A stretch of 64,000 nt of DNA, taken from Microbacterium terregens. GTDB lineage: Bacteria > Actinomycetota > Actinomycetes > Actinomycetales > Microbacteriaceae. This document shows, one piece after another, positions 37,772 to 44,466 of the stretch (the stretch's first letter is position 1; every line of letters begins with the position of its first letter). The position numbers and the translations under genes are program-made. The DNA lies in NCBI RefSeq assembly GCF_039534975.1, contig NZ_BAAAWH010000001.1, positions 682,001 through 746,000 on the forward strand. The letters are read 5' to 3'. Under the pieces are notes generated by a model. That model had not been told where the DNA came from, searched no databases, and worked only from the letters and a program-made list of their open reading frames with translations.

Positions 37772-38428
37772 ATGTGGGGTCGGTGGGTGATGGCGCTGGG
37801 CGGTCTGCTCGTCGTGCTCATCACCCCTGCCTTCGCGCTCTCGTACTTCGGCGCCTACGGAGATGAGTACCAAGCGCCGCATGACTGGCTGGCCGCTCTG
37901 CAGGATCCGCTCGTCAGCGGCGGCGCGCTCGACCCCGGTTCGACAGCGCAGTACGACGGCTACGGGCTGATGTATCTGGGTGCCTGGGTGATCGGGCTCG
38001 TCGGGCTGGTCGGCGTCGTCGGCAGCCAGTGGGTTCGCTTCACTGAGCGGCTCCGTCGCGCGTGGAGTGCCGTGATCGCCACGCTCGCACTCGTGACGGT
38101 GGGTGTCTTCGGCGACTACGCCCTCCCCGACGAGGTGCTCGGATTCATCGGATTCGTCCTCACGGGGGTCGGGTTCCTCGCCGCCGCGGTGATGTTCCTG
38201 CTGCTGGGGCGTGCGCTCCGCCGCGAACTCGGAACTCGGCGTCGCGCCGCGTGGACGGTCGGCGCACTGGGCATCGTGTCGGTGTTCGGGGGGATGGCGC
38301 TCGTCGGGCACATCCCATCAGGACCGGGCCTGGGGTTCGCCGTAGCGGCGCTCGTCGCCGGCCTGGCCCGACCATGGCGGGTCGGGCCGGAACGGTGGGA
38401 CAGCCTGAGCATCGATCCGGTCGACTAG
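37772..38428 (+). CDS. Hypothetical membrane protein (five to six helices)
   Basis: A 218-residue inner-membrane protein with hydrophobic segments near residues 5-25, 68-87, 95-112, 118-143 and 155-200, and a 40-residue external-type loop (FGAYGDEYQAPHDWLAALQ). It has a strong ribosome site (GAGGAGG) and lies 33 nt after the ATP-grasp gene, so it probably belongs to the same transcript. No family recognised. Confidence 0.75.
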   Translation: MWGRWVMALGGLLVVLITPAFALSYFGAYGDEYQAPHDWLAALQDPLVSGGALDPGSTAQYDGYGLMYLGAWVIGLVGLVGVVGSQWVRFTERLRRAWSAVIATLALVTVGVFGDYALPDEVLGFIGFVLTGVGFLAAAVMFLLLGRALRRELGTRRRAAWTVGALGIVSVFGGMALVGHIPSGPGLGFAVAALVAGLARPWRVGPERWDSLSIDPVD

Positions 38429-38443
38429 CCCCGGCGGGCCTCC

Positions 38444-39610
38444 CTATCGCGCCGCCAGAGCGCTGTCGATGTCGTGGAGCAGGTCATCGATGCTCTCTAT
38501 GCCCACCGACAGGCGCACGACGTCCTCGGGGACCGCCAGTTCCGTGCCGCGCACCGAGGCGTGTGTCATCTCGTGGGGATAGTTGACGAGCGATTCGACG
38601 CCGCCGAGCGACTCGGCGAGCTGGAACAGGCGCGTCGACTCGGCGAATCGGCGGGCGGATGCGGCGTCGCCGAGCGCGACCGAGACGATGCCCCCGAAGC
38701 CGGACATCTGGCGGGCGGCCAGCTGGTGCCCGGGGTGCGACGGGAGCCCCGGGTAGTAGACCCGGGCGACGCGATCGTGGCCGTCGAGGAACGCCGCGAT
38801 GGCCGCCGCGTTCTCGCTGTGTCTCTGCATGCGGATGCCGAGGGTCTTGATGCCGCGCGTGGTCAGCCACGCATCCAGCGGGCCCGAGACCGCGCCGGCG
38901 GCGAACTGCAGGAAGCGCGCGCCCTCGGCGACGGCGTCGTCGTCGATCACCAGCGCGCCGCCGACGACATCCGAATGGCCGCCGAGATACTTCGTCGCGG
39001 AGTGCACGACCACGTCTGCGCCGTGCCGCAGCGGCTGCTGCAGCGCGGGCGATGCGAAGGTGTTGTCGACCACGACGAGCGCACCGGCGTCGTGGCCGAG
39101 GCGCGCGAGTCCGGCGATGTCGGTGATCCGCAGGAGCGGGTTGCTGGGCGTCTCGACCCAGAGCACGCGTGCGGGTCGCTCCTCGAGAGCCGCTGCGACA
39201 GCATCCAGATCGCTCATGTCGACGATGCGCAGCCCGATGCCCCACGGGCCGAGGATGCGTGCGATCAGACGATAGGTCCCGCCGTAGACGTCGTTGCCGA
39301 GCAGCACCTCGTCGCCGGGCTTCAGCACCGACCGGAGCAGGGCGTCTTCGGCCGCGAGTCCGGACGAGAACGACAGACCGTGACGGCCACCCTCGATCGC
39401 GGCGAGCTGGGTCTGGAGCGCGTTCCGTGTGGGGTTGCCGCTGCGACCGTACTCGTAGCCCTGACGCAGACCGCCGATGCCGTCCTGCGCGTAGGTCGTC
39501 GAGAAATGCACGGGCGGGATGACCGCACCGGTCGCGGGATCGAAGGCCTGCCCGGCGTGCACGGCAAGGCTGTCGAAACCGCGCGTCGAGTGGTCGGTGG
39601 GATCGGTCAT
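38444..39610 (-). CDS. Cystathionine gamma-synthase/gamma-lyase
   Basis: A 388-residue Cys/Met-metabolism PLP enzyme. The Schiff-base Lys is in VVHSATKYLGGHSDVVGG. PLP contacts include YEYGRSGNPTRNALQ and FSSGLAAEDALL, and the C-terminal SLGGVESLVNYPHEMTHASV is the CGS/CGL substrate segment. As it overlaps a cystathionine beta-synthase-like gene by 4 nt (ATGA), the lyase direction (cystathionine to cysteine, reverse transsulfuration) is favoured, though gamma-synthase activity is possible. AGGAGC precedes the ATG. It is controlled with its partner behind a Cys-rich leader peptide. Confidence 0.92.
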   Translation of the reverse strand: MTDPTDHSTRGFDSLAVHAGQAFDPATGAVIPPVHFSTTYAQDGIGGLRQGYEYGRSGNPTRNALQTQLAAIEGGRHGLSFSSGLAAEDALLRSVLKPGDEVLLGNDVYGGTYRLIARILGPWGIGLRIVDMSDLDAVAAALEERPARVLWVETPSNPLLRITDIAGLARLGHDAGALVVVDNTFASPALQQPLRHGADVVVHSATKYLGGHSDVVGGALVIDDDAVAEGARFLQFAAGAVSGPLDAWLTTRGIKTLGIRMQRHSENAAAIAAFLDGHDRVARVYYPGLPSHPGHQLAARQMSGFGGIVSVALGDAASARRFAESTRLFQLAESLGGVESLVNYPHEMTHASVRGTELAVPEDVVRLSVGIESIDDLLHDIDSALAAR

Positions 39611-40599
39611 GAGCTGCTCCTGGTGGTGGGGGTGGAATCGTCTGATGCCGAATAGCCGTGGGCGCGCATCCAGTCGTCGTCGAAGAGCTTGCTCATGTAG
39701 CCGCGGCCGTGATCCGGCAGCAGCACGACCACGACCGCATCCTCGGGCAGGTCCTTCGCAGCGCGGAGGGCGGCGACGACGGCCATTCCGCTGGAACCGC
39801 CGACGAGGAGCCCCTCTTCGCGGGCGAGGCGCCGGGTCATCGCGAACGACTCGGCGTCGCCGATGCGGTGGATCTCGTCGACCACGCTCGGGTCGTACGC
39901 GGCGGGCCAGAAGTCCTCGCCGACGCCTTCGACGTCGTACGTGTGCACCGGCCCGCCCGAGTAGATGGACCCCTCCGGGTCGGCGCCGATGATCCGCACG
40001 GCGCCGGCCGATGCCTCGGTCAGATAGCGCCCGGCGCCGGTGATCGTGCCCCCCGTGCCGATCCCGGCGACGAAGTGGGTGACCCGCCCGTCGGTGTCGC
40101 GCCAGATCTCGGGGCCGGTGGACTCGAAGTGGCTGCGCGGTCCGTGCGGATTCGCGTACTGGTTGGGCATGTACGCGCCGTCGATCTCGGCGACCAGGCG
40201 TGCCGAGATGCTGTAGTACGACCGGGGATCGTCGGGCTCCACCGCGGTCGGGGCGACCACGACCTCGGCGCCGTACGCGCGCAGCACCGCACGTTTGTCC
40301 TCGGCGACCTTGTCGGGAACGACGAAGACGCACCGATACCCGCGCTGCTGGGCGACCAGGGCGAGGCCCACCCCGGTGTTGCCACTGGTGGGCTCGACGA
40401 TCGTGCCGCCGGGGCGCAGCAGCCCGTCGCGTTCGGCCGCCTCGATGATGTTGGCCGCAATCCGGTCCTTGGACGAACCACCCGGGTTGAAGTACTCGAC
40501 CTTGGCGAGGACCGTGGCGCGGATGCCGGTGGTGACGCGGTTGAGGCGGACGAGGGGAGTGTTGCCGACGAGGTCGGTCACGCTCTGGGCGTATCGCAC
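39607..40599 (-). CDS. Cystathionine beta-synthase / cysteine synthase family protein
   Basis: A 330-residue fold-type II PLP enzyme: PLP Lys in GGSSKDRIA, phosphate loop GTGGTITGAG and TSGNTGVGLALVAQQ. It is shorter than the ~455-residue actinobacterial CBS because the C-terminal CBS (Bateman) pair is missing, as in MccA-type or O-acetylserine-dependent enzymes. It would condense serine or O-acetylserine with homocysteine. GTG start with AGGA seven bases upstream. The first gene of a two-gene operon with a short leader peptide and hairpins 5' of it. Confidence 0.9.
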   Translation of the reverse strand: MRYAQSVTDLVGNTPLVRLNRVTTGIRATVLAKVEYFNPGGSSKDRIAANIIEAAERDGLLRPGGTIVEPTSGNTGVGLALVAQQRGYRCVFVVPDKVAEDKRAVLRAYGAEVVVAPTAVEPDDPRSYYSISARLVAEIDGAYMPNQYANPHGPRSHFESTGPEIWRDTDGRVTHFVAGIGTGGTITGAGRYLTEASAGAVRIIGADPEGSIYSGGPVHTYDVEGVGEDFWPAAYDPSVVDEIHRIGDAESFAMTRRLAREEGLLVGGSSGMAVVAALRAAKDLPEDAVVVVLLPDHGRGYMSKLFDDDWMRAHGYSASDDSTPTTRSSS

Positions 40600-40620
40600 G
40601 ATGGTGTCCTGAGAGAGAGG

Positions 40621-40714
40621 CCGCGCGTCAGAGGCGCGGGAGATCGTCGGGGTCGTCGGAGTGAGCGCGAGGCGCTCAGCGACAACAACGACAGGTCAGC
40701 ACGCTTACACAGTA
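40621..40714 (-). promoter_or_regulatory. Attenuator-like leader of the transsulfuration operon
   Basis: In order on the minus strand: -10 TACTGT (40709-40714); six bases; a leader ORF; hairpin TGAGCGC-CTC-GCGCTCA (40662-40678) whose first three bases are the leader's stop codon; then hairpin CCGCGC/GCGCGG (40621-40639) close to the AGGA ribosome site of the first gene. This suits cysteine-sensitive translation of the leader controlling hairpin choice. Confidence 0.65.
40676..40702 (-). CDS. Cys-rich leader peptide (MLTCRCCR)
   Basis: An eight-codon ORF, GTG to TGA, with three Cys codons (all TGT) out of eight. GTG lies six bases after a TACTGT -10 box, so translation would begin at the 5' end of a leaderless message. 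It ends 76 nt before the cystathionine beta-synthase-like gene. Leaderless Cys-rich upstream ORFs that make downstream genes respond to cysteine supply are known in mycobacteria. TGT is rarely used compared with TGC in such GC-rich DNA, which should sharpen stalling. Confidence 0.75.
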   Translation of the reverse strand: MLTCRCCR

Positions 40715-40786
40715 GCCGCTCGGGCCAGCGGCTGCGACTGCACTCCGTTCCCGGTCCGTGGCGGCAACCGGCGGGATGCCGCGGCG

Positions 40787-42418
40787 TCAGCTCGCGAGCG
40801 CGCGGTGCACCGAGGCCACCGCGCTGGACCCCTCGCCCACGGCCGCCGCGACGCGCTTCATCGACCCGCGTCGTACGTCCCCGGCGGCGAAGACCCGCGG
40901 CGTGGACGTTTCGAACGGCAGCGGTTCCCGGCCGAGATGCTGCCACTGCTGCAGCGTCTGGGCGGCGACGTCGGTACCGGTCCGGATGAATCCGTCCTGA
41001 TCCCGATCGAGCATCGTCAGCCACGAGGTGGCCGGCTCCGCGCCTATGAAGCAGAACAGTCCACGGGCGTCGACATCGCCGACGGTGTCGATGCTGACCC
41101 GCTCCAGCGCCTCTTCGCCGTCGAGTCCGACGATGCGGGACCCGGTGTGGATCTCCACCCGCGGATCCTCCATGAGGCGCTCGACCAGGTAGGACGACAT
41201 CCGTGCACCGAGGTCCTGGCCGCGCACGACCAGCCGGACCGGACAGCCGTTCGCCGCGAGGTAGAGAGAGGCCTGACCGGCGGAATTGGCACCGCCGACG
41301 ACGACGACCGGTGACTCCATGACCTGGCGCAGCTCCAGCTGCGTCGCCGCGTAGTAGATCCCCGCCCGCTCGAAGTCCGACCAGCGATCCAGCTCGAGGC
41401 GGCGGTAGGCGGCCCCGGATGTGACGATCGCGGTGCGGGTGCGGATGATGCGCCCGTCGGTGAGGGTGACATCCAGAAGTTCGTCCGCGGGCTCCAGCTT
41501 GACCGCCTCGCACGGCGCGTAGACGCGGACGCCGAATTTGAGGGCCTGCAGTGAGGCCTGACCGATCAGGTCCCGTCCGCTCACCCCGAAGGGGAAGCCC
41601 AGGAAGTTCTCGATGCGCGATGTCGCCGCGGCCTGGCCGCCGGGAGCGACGGCATCCAGCAGCACCGTGCTCAGCCCTTCCGAGGCGCCGTAGATCGCCG
41701 CCGCCAGCCCGGCGGGGCCGCCGCCCACGACCACGAGATCCACGATCTCGTCTCCGTTGGCCTGGTAGCTCAGACCCAGGCGCTCGGCGACCATGCCGGG
41801 CGTGGCCCGCAGAAGGGGCTCTCCCTGGATGAACGCGACCGGAAGATCGTCGACGGTGATCCCGTGACCGGTGAGGGATCCGAGTTCACCGGGCTGCAGC
41901 TCGACCGCGGAATGCACCAGATCGAGTCGCTCGGCGAATCGGCGAAGCGAGAGGAAATCCCGCGATGAGGTGGGGCCGACGAGCTTGAGCGTCAGCGCCG
42001 CCGGGCCCTTGCGCAGCGACTCGCGACGAGCCCACAGCGCGTGGAGGATGAGGTCGCACAGCTCGTCATCCTCGCTCATGAGACGGCGCAGATCGGTCCG
42101 CGTCACCATCGACACCCGTCCCGGCGTGGACATCCGCGCGGACAGGAACGCGCCCTGGCCATTGAGCAGGCCCAGTTCGCCGACGAACGAGCGCGGGCCC
42201 GGCCGCGCGATCACGGCCTCCTCGACCCACCACAGCGAATCGCGCACAACCTCGAGCTCGCCCGACTCGACGAGGATCATGTCGTATTCCCGGTCGCCCG
42301 AGCGAAAGAGGTATTCGCCTGCCGCGACATCCTGCGGGGTGCCGAAGTCGAGCAGGCGCTCCCACTGCGCGTCGGTCAGGTCGGGGCGCTGGATGGGATC
42401 CAGATTGTCGTTTTCCAT
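40787..42418 (-). CDS. Cyclic-nucleotide-binding protein fused to a CxxC-less thioredoxin-reductase-like flavoprotein
   Basis: A 543-residue three-part protein. Residues ~10-120 are a cNMP-binding (CAP-type) beta-barrel (FVGELGLLNGQGAFLSARMS as phosphate cassette). Residues ~130-215 resemble a thioredoxin-like domain without Cys. Residues ~225-540 are a FAD/NADPH reductase (VVVGGGPAGLAAAIYGASEG, VVVGGANSAGQASLYLA, RVFAAGDVR). Where thioredoxin reductase has CATC the sequence reads YYAATQLELR, so dithiol chemistry is impossible. Similar fusions carry a receiver instead of cNMP. It lies downstream of nhaA-dsbA on the same strand (31-nt gap). A cyclase 5 kb away could supply the ligand. Confidence 0.88.
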   Translation of the reverse strand: MENDNLDPIQRPDLTDAQWERLLDFGTPQDVAAGEYLFRSGDREYDMILVESGELEVVRDSLWWVEEAVIARPGPRSFVGELGLLNGQGAFLSARMSTPGRVSMVTRTDLRRLMSEDDELCDLILHALWARRESLRKGPAALTLKLVGPTSSRDFLSLRRFAERLDLVHSAVELQPGELGSLTGHGITVDDLPVAFIQGEPLLRATPGMVAERLGLSYQANGDEIVDLVVVGGGPAGLAAAIYGASEGLSTVLLDAVAPGGQAAATSRIENFLGFPFGVSGRDLIGQASLQALKFGVRVYAPCEAVKLEPADELLDVTLTDGRIIRTRTAIVTSGAAYRRLELDRWSDFERAGIYYAATQLELRQVMESPVVVVGGANSAGQASLYLAANGCPVRLVVRGQDLGARMSSYLVERLMEDPRVEIHTGSRIVGLDGEEALERVSIDTVGDVDARGLFCFIGAEPATSWLTMLDRDQDGFIRTGTDVAAQTLQQWQHLGREPLPFETSTPRVFAAGDVRRGSMKRVAAAVGEGSSAVASVHRALAS

Positions 42419-42449
42419 CTTCACCAGACTGCTTTCGATCGTCCCCGCA

Positions 42450-44339
42450 CTATCGGGCGGGGGCAGCGGGCTGCGGTTCCTGCTCGGACTGCTCGAGAGC
42501 GCGGATGAGGGACTGGGCGTCGTAGGGACCGGTGTGCCGCCGGCCGTTGATGAACAGCGTCGGCACCGACGTGATGCCCATCGCCTCGGCATCCAGCATG
42601 TCGTCCTGCACGCGCCCGGTGACCTCAGCGGACATGAGGTCCCTCTCGAACTTGGGGACGTCGAGACCGAGCTCCCGTGCGAGGCGGATGATGTCGGACG
42701 GCCGCTGGTTCTCCTGGTCGGCGAACAACCCTCGTTCGAAGTCGAAGAACTTTCCCTGCAAGGATGCCGCTTCTGCCGCCTCTGCGCCGGCGAGCGCGTT
42801 CGGGTGCACCGTTGTGAGCGGCGCGTGGCGCCAGACGTAGCGGAGCCTGTCGCCGAGCTGGTCGTGCACCTCCTGGATCGAGCCGGAGGCTTTGAGGCAG
42901 AAGCCGCACTGGAAGTCGCCGTACTCCACGATCGTGAACGGGGCATCCGCCGCGCCGAACACATGGTCGCGCTGGGGGTCGACCCGCCGCATCAGCGTCT
43001 GGCCTGAATCGACATCCGGATGGACGGCGTCCGAGACGCGGAAGATCACGGTGGCGATGATGAAGGCGAGCACGGACGCGGCGAGCACGCCGACGCGTGC
43101 TTGGTTCTGCGCCGCAGGATCATCGATGGCCAGGTCGACGATGAACAGCGAGATGGTGAATCCGATGCCGCACAGCGCCGCTCCGCCGGCGATGCGGTCC
43201 AGTGTCAGTCCCGGCCCGAATTCGCCCAGACGCAGGAGGCGCAGGATGGCGGCGGACCCGAAGACGCCCAGGAACTTGCCCACCACCAGGCCGACGACGA
43301 TGCCCCACGTCAGCGCCGACGTCATCGCGCCCGCGAGGATCTCGGGGCTGAGCACGACGCCCGCGTTGGCCAGTGCGAACAGCGGGAGGATGACGTACGC
43401 GACGTACGGGGCGTACGCGGACTGGAGCCGCTCGTTGATCGAGATGGATTCGCGCAGGCTGTTCGCCGCCGCACGCGCGTACTGCGTGTTGGGGGACTGC
43501 CGGAACGTGCGCGCCAGATCGAGCGCGTGCTCCACATCGCGACGGTCAGGACGATACACCGGCACGAGGAGGGCGATCGCGACGCCGGCGAGGGTGGGGT
43601 GCACGCCGGAGGCCAGAAAAGCCAGCCACACGATGATCGCCAGGGTCGCGTAGACCGGGCCCCGCCCACCGCGCAGGTATCGGGTGAAGTACACCCCCGC
43701 CAACCCGGCCGCGGCGACGAGGAGCGGGAGCGGGTTGAAATTCTCGGTGTAGACCAACGCGATGATGCTCAGCGCCCCGATGTCATCCACCACCGCGAGG
43801 GTCAGCAGGAATACGCGCAGCCGACCGGGAACGCGCGGCCCGATCAGCGCGAGCGCGCCGACGAGGAACGCCGTGTCCGTGGAGATCACGATTCCCCATG
43901 CGGCCTCGTACCCGGAGCCCGCGGCGATGAGGACGAACAGCAGCGCGGGCACCGCGAGCCCGGCGACGGCCGCGACGACCGGCACCATGGCTCGGGACCA
44001 GCTGGTCAGTTCGCCGATCGCGAACTCGCGCCGGACCTCGAGCCCGACGGTGAAGAAGAAGATCGCCATGAGGGCATCGTTCACGAGAGCATGCAGGGTG
44101 AAATCGAGCTGCAGATCCCCCACCCCGACGGTCAGGTGCGTCTCCCACAGCGTCGCGTACGACCCCGAGGCCACGTTCGCCCAGATGATCGCGGCGAGCG
44201 TCGCGATCAGAAGAAGCAGGGCGCCGATGCGGGTCTGCCCCAGATCGCCGATCTTCTCCGCGATGGAGCGCCGAGTGCGCGAGCGCTGCTCAGCGGGTTC
44301 GGGATTGGGCGTCGACGGGGTGCGCGTCAAGTCGGACAT
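42450..44339 (-). CDS. nhaA: NhaA Na+/H+ antiporter fused to a DsbA-like thioredoxin domain
   Basis: A 629-residue fusion. Residues ~25-430 are NhaA with about 12 helices, FFFTVGLEVRREF and the transport Asp pair in LAVVDDIGA. Residues ~455-620 are a DsbA/thioredoxin domain with active-site C478-GF-C481 and the cis-Pro segment ITSVPTLFINGR. The antiporter expels Na+ in exchange for protons. The fused oxidoreductase may fold or repair exported proteins or sense redox; its side of the membrane depends on topology. Such fusions recur in actinobacteria. The start at 44339 directly abuts a 125-bp inverted-repeat element. Confidence 0.92.
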   Translation of the reverse strand: MSDLTRTPSTPNPEPAEQRSRTRRSIAEKIGDLGQTRIGALLLLIATLAAIIWANVASGSYATLWETHLTVGVGDLQLDFTLHALVNDALMAIFFFTVGLEVRREFAIGELTSWSRAMVPVVAAVAGLAVPALLFVLIAAGSGYEAAWGIVISTDTAFLVGALALIGPRVPGRLRVFLLTLAVVDDIGALSIIALVYTENFNPLPLLVAAAGLAGVYFTRYLRGGRGPVYATLAIIVWLAFLASGVHPTLAGVAIALLVPVYRPDRRDVEHALDLARTFRQSPNTQYARAAANSLRESISINERLQSAYAPYVAYVILPLFALANAGVVLSPEILAGAMTSALTWGIVVGLVVGKFLGVFGSAAILRLLRLGEFGPGLTLDRIAGGAALCGIGFTISLFIVDLAIDDPAAQNQARVGVLAASVLAFIIATVIFRVSDAVHPDVDSGQTLMRRVDPQRDHVFGAADAPFTIVEYGDFQCGFCLKASGSIQEVHDQLGDRLRYVWRHAPLTTVHPNALAGAEAAEAASLQGKFFDFERGLFADQENQRPSDIIRLARELGLDVPKFERDLMSAEVTGRVQDDMLDAEAMGITSVPTLFINGRRHTGPYDAQSLIRALEQSEQEPQPAAPAR

Positions 44340-44341
44340 TT

Positions 44342-44466
44342 GTGTGCATTCTCGTCGACCTCCACCACGGCGACAAGTCGAATTCGGGGATCCGAATTCC
44401 CGGCCTCCGGATTCTCGGGCGTCGGATTCTCTGCCAACTCCGACGCCCGCGTGTGAGAATGCACAC
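44342..44466. repeat. 125-bp inverted-repeat-bounded element between nhaA and thrE
   Basis: Outer arms GTGTGCATTCTC (44342-44353) and GAGAATGCACAC (44455-44466) are perfect 12-bp inverted repeats. Inside are GAATTCGG/CCGAATTC (44380-44399) and GGGCGTCGGA/TCCGACGCCC (44417-44448), also perfect. It fills the divergent promoter gap. It could be a MITE-like insertion, an operator cluster or a structured leader. Confidence 0.7.

Follow-up and report, generated by a model that had tools for sequence, protein, structure and literature searches.

The window (the whole stretch of Microbacterium terregens DNA analysed, 64,000 nucleotides) was found to carry, on its reverse strand, a very short Cys-rich ORF followed by a two-gene operon of cysteine metabolism (Table 1). 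The ORF reads GTG CTG ACC TGT CGT TGT TGT CGC TGA; it thus has eight sense codons, translated as MLTCRCCR, with Cys (TGT) at codons 4, 6 and 7. The initial annotation had described a nine-codon ORF, counting the stop, with three TGT codons, and had placed TACTGT six bases ahead of it and a gene of the cystathionine beta-synthase (CBS) type 76 nt behind it; reading the sequence again confirmed each of these points, with the TGA at 40676 and the GTG of the CBS gene at 40599. Because the GTG sits at the transcription start expected from TACTGT, the ORF is predicted to be leaderless, and we infer that it is translated from this leaderless start. A scan for sigma-70 -35/-10 pairs of the E. coli type gave no pair at the leader promoter. 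The 76-nt gap contains the rest of the stop-codon hairpin, the second arm of the helix P2, the P3 hairpin, a pyrimidine tract and the AGGA motif. Both hairpins that had been pointed out beforehand are present: the one that starts with the leader stop codon is perfect (TGAGCGC CTC GCGCTCA, 7 bp), and the second, near the ribosome site, ends 10 nt ahead of AGGA.

Table 1. Features of the leader region and of the operon behind it, numbered by position in the window.
Feature	Position	Strand	Basis or remark
-10 hexamer TACTGT	40709..40714	(-)	6 nt (GTAAGC) upstream of leader GTG
Leader ORF MLTCRCCR, GTG to TGA	40676..40702	(-)	sequence reading
P2 5' arm, Cys-codon tract, leader nt 10-14 and 17-23	40680..40693	(-)	fold, pair counts
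Stop-codon hairpin TGAGCGC/GCGCTCA, nested in P2	40662..40678	(-)	perfect 7 bp
P2 3' arm, non-coding CGACGAC..CGACG, complementary to Cys tract	40645..40658	(-)	conserved in alignments
P3 hairpin CCGCGC...GCGCGG	40621..40639	(-)	just before pyrimidine tract and ribosome site
Shine-Dalgarno AGGA of CBS gene	40607..40610	(-)	sequence
Cystathionine beta-synthase, PLP domain only, 330 aa	39607..40599	(-)	TIGR01137, PF00291
Cystathionine gamma-lyase/gamma-synthase type gene	38444..39610	(-)	NF005871, PF01053

The CBS gene scored 509.9 bits against TIGR01137, whose equivalog cut-off is 510.25, and its C-terminal domain is missing; in Pfam, only PF00291 was matched, with no CBS (Bateman) domain. The ATG of the second gene overlaps the CBS stop codon (ATGA). 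In scans that began at 39562, this gene matched NF005871 with 617.7 bits (cut-off 513), a model named cystathionine gamma-synthase, and also PF01053, i.e. the Cys/Met PLP family. The annotated order of a CBS gene and then a gamma-lyase gene held as a pair of matched families of cysteine metabolism, although the best-matching family of the second gene is called a gamma-synthase. Since the best NCBIfam model is a gamma-synthase, both the gamma-lyase function and the "reverse" direction follow from the pairing with CBS, and the operon likely performs reverse transsulfuration, judging by its gene families. Directly upstream of the leader and on the same strand lies a gene (40787-42490) for a flavoprotein that resembles thioredoxin reductase and carries a cyclic-nucleotide-binding domain at its N-terminus (PF00027 and PF07992); it adjoins a gene (42450-44450, reverse strand) in which the Na+/H+ antiporter NhaA (PF06965) is joined to a domain of the DsbA/thioredoxin-like kind (PF13462).

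The leader architecture was formalised in a detector (TANNNT, 5-8 nt, ATG or GTG, and an ORF of 6-16 residues with at least two Cys in the last nine), and the CBS leader was its sole match in the window. In Markov-1 sequence, 0.03 matches with at least two Cys are expected per 64 kb on both strands, and none of 30 simulated windows contained the architecture with at least three Cys. A closely similar detector, applied to relatives, found nothing in 1188 in-gene windows of 300 nt and nothing in 198 antisense upstream stretches.

Alignment across relatives showed that the ORF and its Cys codons, whose absence from relatives would have refuted the idea according to the annotation, are indeed retained. 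We searched 119 Microbacterium genomes, of which 90 contain a CBS gene (E <= 1e-110), examined all 90 of these genes and found that 67 are preceded by a leader carrying two or more Cys. The start codon (GTG in 65 leaders, ATG in 2) follows a TANNNT box by 6-7 nt in 66 of the 67, the one leader without a box being L230, and the distance from stop to gene is 67-100 nt with a median of 76. AGGA is present in 64 of these relatives. The most frequent peptides were VLTCRCCR (26), VLTCRCCRPCC (9) and VSLTCRCCR (6), with 20 rarer forms besides. Clustered Cys codons lie close to the stop in all 67 leaders; three Cys occur in 48, two in 7 and four or five in 12, a range of 2-5 in which 2 is the minimum accepted by the detector.

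The CBS proteins behind these leaders are shorter than 410 aa in 66 of 67 cases, and the two short forms that were scanned against Pfam (those of the window and of L172) have no CBS domain. The exception, L170 (1501-2883), combines a leader with a CBS protein of 460 aa whose CBS domain is degenerate (20.3 bits, cut-off 24). The 23 genes without a leader comprise 22 long forms (454-488 aa) and L232, whose far end is truncated by the contig boundary. All 67 leaders matched the covariance model described below, as they must by construction, and 0 of the 23 other loci matched it at E 0.01. A gene tree built from 199 CBS sequences sets the 76 short leader-bearing genes apart by a single split with support 0.934, and the 23 leader-lacking genes of the genus make up a separate clade (support 0.997); the genus thus provides one evolutionary contrast, not many. 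L170 is a possible intermediate in the loss of the regulatory CBS domain. A wider scenario would be that, in this clade, cysteine sensing at the RNA level replaced control through the CBS domains of the protein, the leader coming first and the Bateman domain being lost later by way of L170. The leader-first order is suggested by long CBS genes with leaders in other genera, and we put the scenario as a whole forward tentatively, regarding it as conceivable but doubtful.

Wider sets of loci also contained leaders, in other genera with a different wording. In a species-labelled comparison set made of the best 80 loci from a longer series, a boxed Cys leader preceded 19 of the 80, namely 10 of 11 short forms, at least six of those 10 apparently repeating genomes of the 67, and 9 of 69 long forms. 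Among other genera of Microbacteriaceae, 141 CBS genes were matched and 69 examined; a leader was detected at 23, of which 12 were among the 29 loci with the best scores and 11 among a further 40, taken as every other locus of the next 79 in the ranking, and no leader was detected at the remaining 46 of these 69. The peptides of these genera differ in sequence (MFLSCCRR, MFVNLLCCRR, MSTVKSCCCCR and others) and keep Cys near the stop. Such leaders (L085-L113, L253-L292) mostly precede full-length CBS genes; as for short forms in other genera, L273 has a leader, and L069 and L086 have none. When the genus covariance model was run on 72 of these 109 loci, the 10 leader-bearing short forms of the species-labelled set matched at E 2e-15 or better and the remaining matches were weak (best E 0.0056, L112), several of them sitting at the start of a CBS gene that has a leader (L112, L068, L010, L029). 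Altogether, about 100 natural variants are available, as 98 of the 199 tree tips carry a leader (some genomes being represented twice), in addition to the 11 of 40 further loci.

Taken alone, the leader of the window has an unremarkable folding energy (z -1.37; equalled or bettered by 18 of 200 shuffles), so the support for it is comparative. Averaged over the 67 sequences, the probability of downstream pairing by the Cys tract is 0.687; with the gap shuffled, the value was 0.367, with a maximum of 0.390 in 8 sets. We then aligned the 67 leaders with a covariance model containing P2, the stop hairpin and P3. In this alignment, which is fitted to the structure and made of related sequences, 87.8% of the cells were paired vs 80.3% in shuffles, and two-sided changes occurred in 17 of 25 pairs vs 9.2 in shuffles, neither value being reached in any of 500 shuffles. 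Sliding the partners by 1-3 columns left only 27-43% paired. The stop hairpin was the clearest case, with two-sided change in 6 of 6 counted pairs among the 67, followed by P3 with 5 of 6 pairs. The evidence for P2 is mainly the conserved non-coding arm, because the coding side hardly varies. RNAalifold kept 5 pairs on a plain alignment; this consensus is weak because hairpin lengths vary, and the covariance model was used instead. The leader fold is conserved with compensatory changes.

Several established classes of RNA regulator were considered and rejected. An intrinsic terminator does not fit, as 0 terminator-like sites were found in 38300-40850 and no T-run follows P3; a classical transcription attenuator of the trp or uORFC-8-2 type, which ends in a U-run terminator, falls with the same 0 sites. 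Known riboswitches and T-boxes gave 0 Rfam matches at the gathering threshold in the window. Below that threshold, 40560-40760 showed three matches to unrelated families (E 0.78-6.4).

The Cys codons of the 67 leaders are TGT in 200 cases and TGC in 15; the downstream CBS genes, with a mean GC of 0.70, have a ratio of TGT 0 : TGC 28. RNA pairing, not decoding speed, may explain part of the TGT bias. The pattern TGYCGNTGYTGYCGNTGA, which covers this wording of the leader only, matched in 59 of the 119 genus genomes. Its all-TGT form TGTCGYTGTTGTCGCTGA occurred at 40 places among the matches listed, every one beside a CBS gene, and two other all-TGT places (G246 and G309) as well as the mixed-codon places of TGYCGNTGYTGYCGNTGA lay away from a CBS gene. 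In the window genome, TGYTGYCGNTRR was found at 73 places, and its reversed control pattern likewise at 73. Scanning 51 of the 73 places (30 loci, and 21 places in 20 stretches; about 138 kb, three homologue loci included) gave no Cys leader but the CBS leader, and 21 of the 22 places outside this set end in TGG, i.e. they have no stop. A wider cysteine regulon may exist beyond the scanned stretches.

Canestrari et al. (Mol Microbiol, 2020) reportedly showed that the leaderless polycysteine short ORFs of mycobacteria are cysteine-responsive attenuators. Polycysteine leaderless attenuation in mycobacteria is described in the available parts of papers that cite this work (PMC13236596, PMC9031893, PMC9094748), and the available part of Shell et al. 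2015 proposes Cys-rich leaderless uORFs in these organisms (PMC4633059). The claim of the initial annotation that Cys-rich leaderless ORFs on sulfur genes are known in mycobacteria is borne out to this extent. As far as these partial texts describe them, the mycobacterial ORFs resemble the present leader in the leaderless type of start, which is predicted here, in Cys codons placed close to the stop, in a downstream operon of cysteine metabolism and in RNA pairing between ORF and gene. In contrast to them, the present leader is non-mycobacterial, has 8-12 codons with CRCC spacing and mostly TGT, and places the Cys tract itself in a conserved stem whose other arm is non-coding; the pattern search across the genus found this leader form with the CBS operon only. 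In the modelling described below, a counterpart of the release of the ribosome-binding site (RBS) reported there was strong in some relatives only, with no leader-specific effect over the 67.

A Cys leader before cbs is not new as an idea. According to the available part of Seliverstov et al. 2005, Cys leaders were predicted before the cys operons of mycobacteria and P. acnes and before cbs of Bifidobacterium longum, with no conserved terminator hairpin and with the mode left open (PMC1262725). The B. longum case resembles ours in having a Cys leader and a cbs gene in an actinobacterium with no obvious terminator, whereas three conserved, covarying helices are present here. The LEU element of actinobacterial leuA, treated in the same source, also has regulatory codons that pair downstream, there with the Shine-Dalgarno (SD) box; it differs in its leucine codons, a possible pseudoknot and its gene (PMC1262725). 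In uORFC-8-2 (cysS, Rhodobacterales), tandem Cys codons likewise lie in the first stem of a conserved RNA, but the available text gives a longer uORF, Cys codons usually at positions 14-15 with UGC dominating, an intrinsic terminator with a U-run, and a different phylum and gene (PMC8632094). Among the matches listed, no title in the open-licence literature concerned such a leader in Microbacteriaceae. With the present leader, cysteine attenuation by leaderless mini-ORFs would reach beyond mycobacteria, into Microbacteriaceae and a transsulfuration operon. The leader is very short, and its defined, covarying fold is unmatched in Rfam 15 and better defined than that of earlier members.

The retention of both the ORF and the fold in dozens of relatives implies that the leader very probably senses cysteine shortage through ribosomes. 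We hold with good confidence that it is a cysteine-responsive, ribosome-mediated attenuator of the CBS operon. The annotation's proposal that a Cys leader controls this transsulfuration operon is supported by conservation and compensatory changes; the stalling and derepression that it entails are drawn by analogy. In the mechanism we propose, transcription would begin at the GTG, and a ribosome would load onto the leaderless eight-codon ORF. With ample Cys-tRNA, the ribosome would reach the stop codon and leave, and the Cys tract would pair with the non-coding arm to form P2, the putative low-expression state. With Cys-tRNA in short supply, the ribosome would stall on TGT codon 4, 6 or 7 and hold P2 open, which would lead to higher expression of the CBS/gamma-lyase operon and to the production of cysteine from methionine-derived homocysteine. 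The response would thus be an increase of expression on cysteine shortage. The output step would most likely be CBS translation, through access to the ribosome site as in mycobacteria, and less likely Rho-dependent termination.

We modelled the stalled states by masking a ribosome footprint on the first Cys codon, the last Cys codon or the stop. The mean cost of opening the initiation region was 8.78 kcal/mol for the full RNA, 7.84 and 7.41 kcal/mol with the first and last Cys masked, respectively, and 8.47 kcal/mol with the stop masked, and the order of these modelled costs is that expected for attenuation. With the leader shuffled and unmasked, the cost was 8.85 kcal/mol, so the closure is not specific to the leader and masking any leader would have a similar effect. 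The window copy gave a mixed picture (7.16 full, 8.37 first Cys, 5.98 last Cys, 8.53 stop). P3 was rejected as the switch: its mean probability was flat across ribosome states (0.60 full, 0.59 first Cys, 0.62 last Cys, 0.59 stop), and its change in the window copy (0.52, 0.17, 0.62 and 0.17 in the same order) had no consistent sense.

One version of the preferred explanation, as reported for mycobacteria, is a translational read-out in which the 5' end of the leader (GUGCUGACC and variants) pairs with the SD region and a stalled ribosome frees the SD. In some relatives this effect was strong, the cost of SD opening falling between the full and stalled states from 7.66 to 2.36 kcal/mol in L198, from 6.98 to 2.31 in L211 and from 8.36 to 2.77 in L185. 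Additionally, the leader 5' end fitted the SD region of its own species better than those of other species (z -3.6 with 66 sequences and z -3.0 with 23 representatives; an earlier form of the comparison gave 4 of 10000 permutations); for control windows within the gene, z lay anywhere between -2.5 and +3.5, and given this wide variation the fit is suggestive only. Against this version, the 67 sequences taken together showed no leader-specific release, as the mean cost for the SD alone was 3.00 kcal/mol full, 2.49 stalled and 3.00 with the leader shuffled, and the effect in the window copy was small (2.42 to 2.31). We give this form of read-out an even chance.

A read-out at the level of transcription, in which the leader ribosome controls termination within the 76-nt gap, by Rho or in a non-canonical way, seems unlikely to us. 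No intrinsic terminator was found and the gap is C-rich and pyrimidine-rich, which would suit it, and Rho was proposed for cys and cbs leaders by Seliverstov and colleagues in the part of their paper available (PMC1262725). The sign of such a read-out would be awkward, however, since a ribosome stalled upstream would be expected to expose the C-rich arm, not to hide it. Very improbable, in our view, is a conserved structured 5' region that stabilises the RNA or binds a ligand and contains the small ORF by accident: the conserved fold does include a non-coding arm, but the start codon keeps its place behind TANNNT in all but one of the genus leaders, what other genera retain in their leaders is Cys close to the stop and not the sequence, and Rfam gave no match. 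A chance ORF, which the mere eight codons might suggest, is practically dismissed by the simulated expectation given above and by the 67 genus genomes that carry the leader.

In the window genome (99.55% complete), neither PF01507 (PAPS reductase) nor PF01077 (sulfite/nitrite reductase) was matched, whereas 14 of 14 and 11 of 14 control genomes matched them, respectively. Assimilatory sulfate reduction thus appears to be absent from this genome, so that sulfate is probably not its cysteine source. The CBS operon may be a main cysteine route, which, with no recognisable sulfate-reduction genes, would then be under direct ribosomal control. A general link of the leader with the loss of sulfate reduction was rejected, since PF01507 was present in 30 of the 67 leader genomes (one match being weak) vs 5 of the 22 long-form genomes; it was also present in 12 of the 30 remaining genomes. 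Elsewhere in the window genome, two homologues of the CBS/cysteine-synthase fold with 43% identity lie together.
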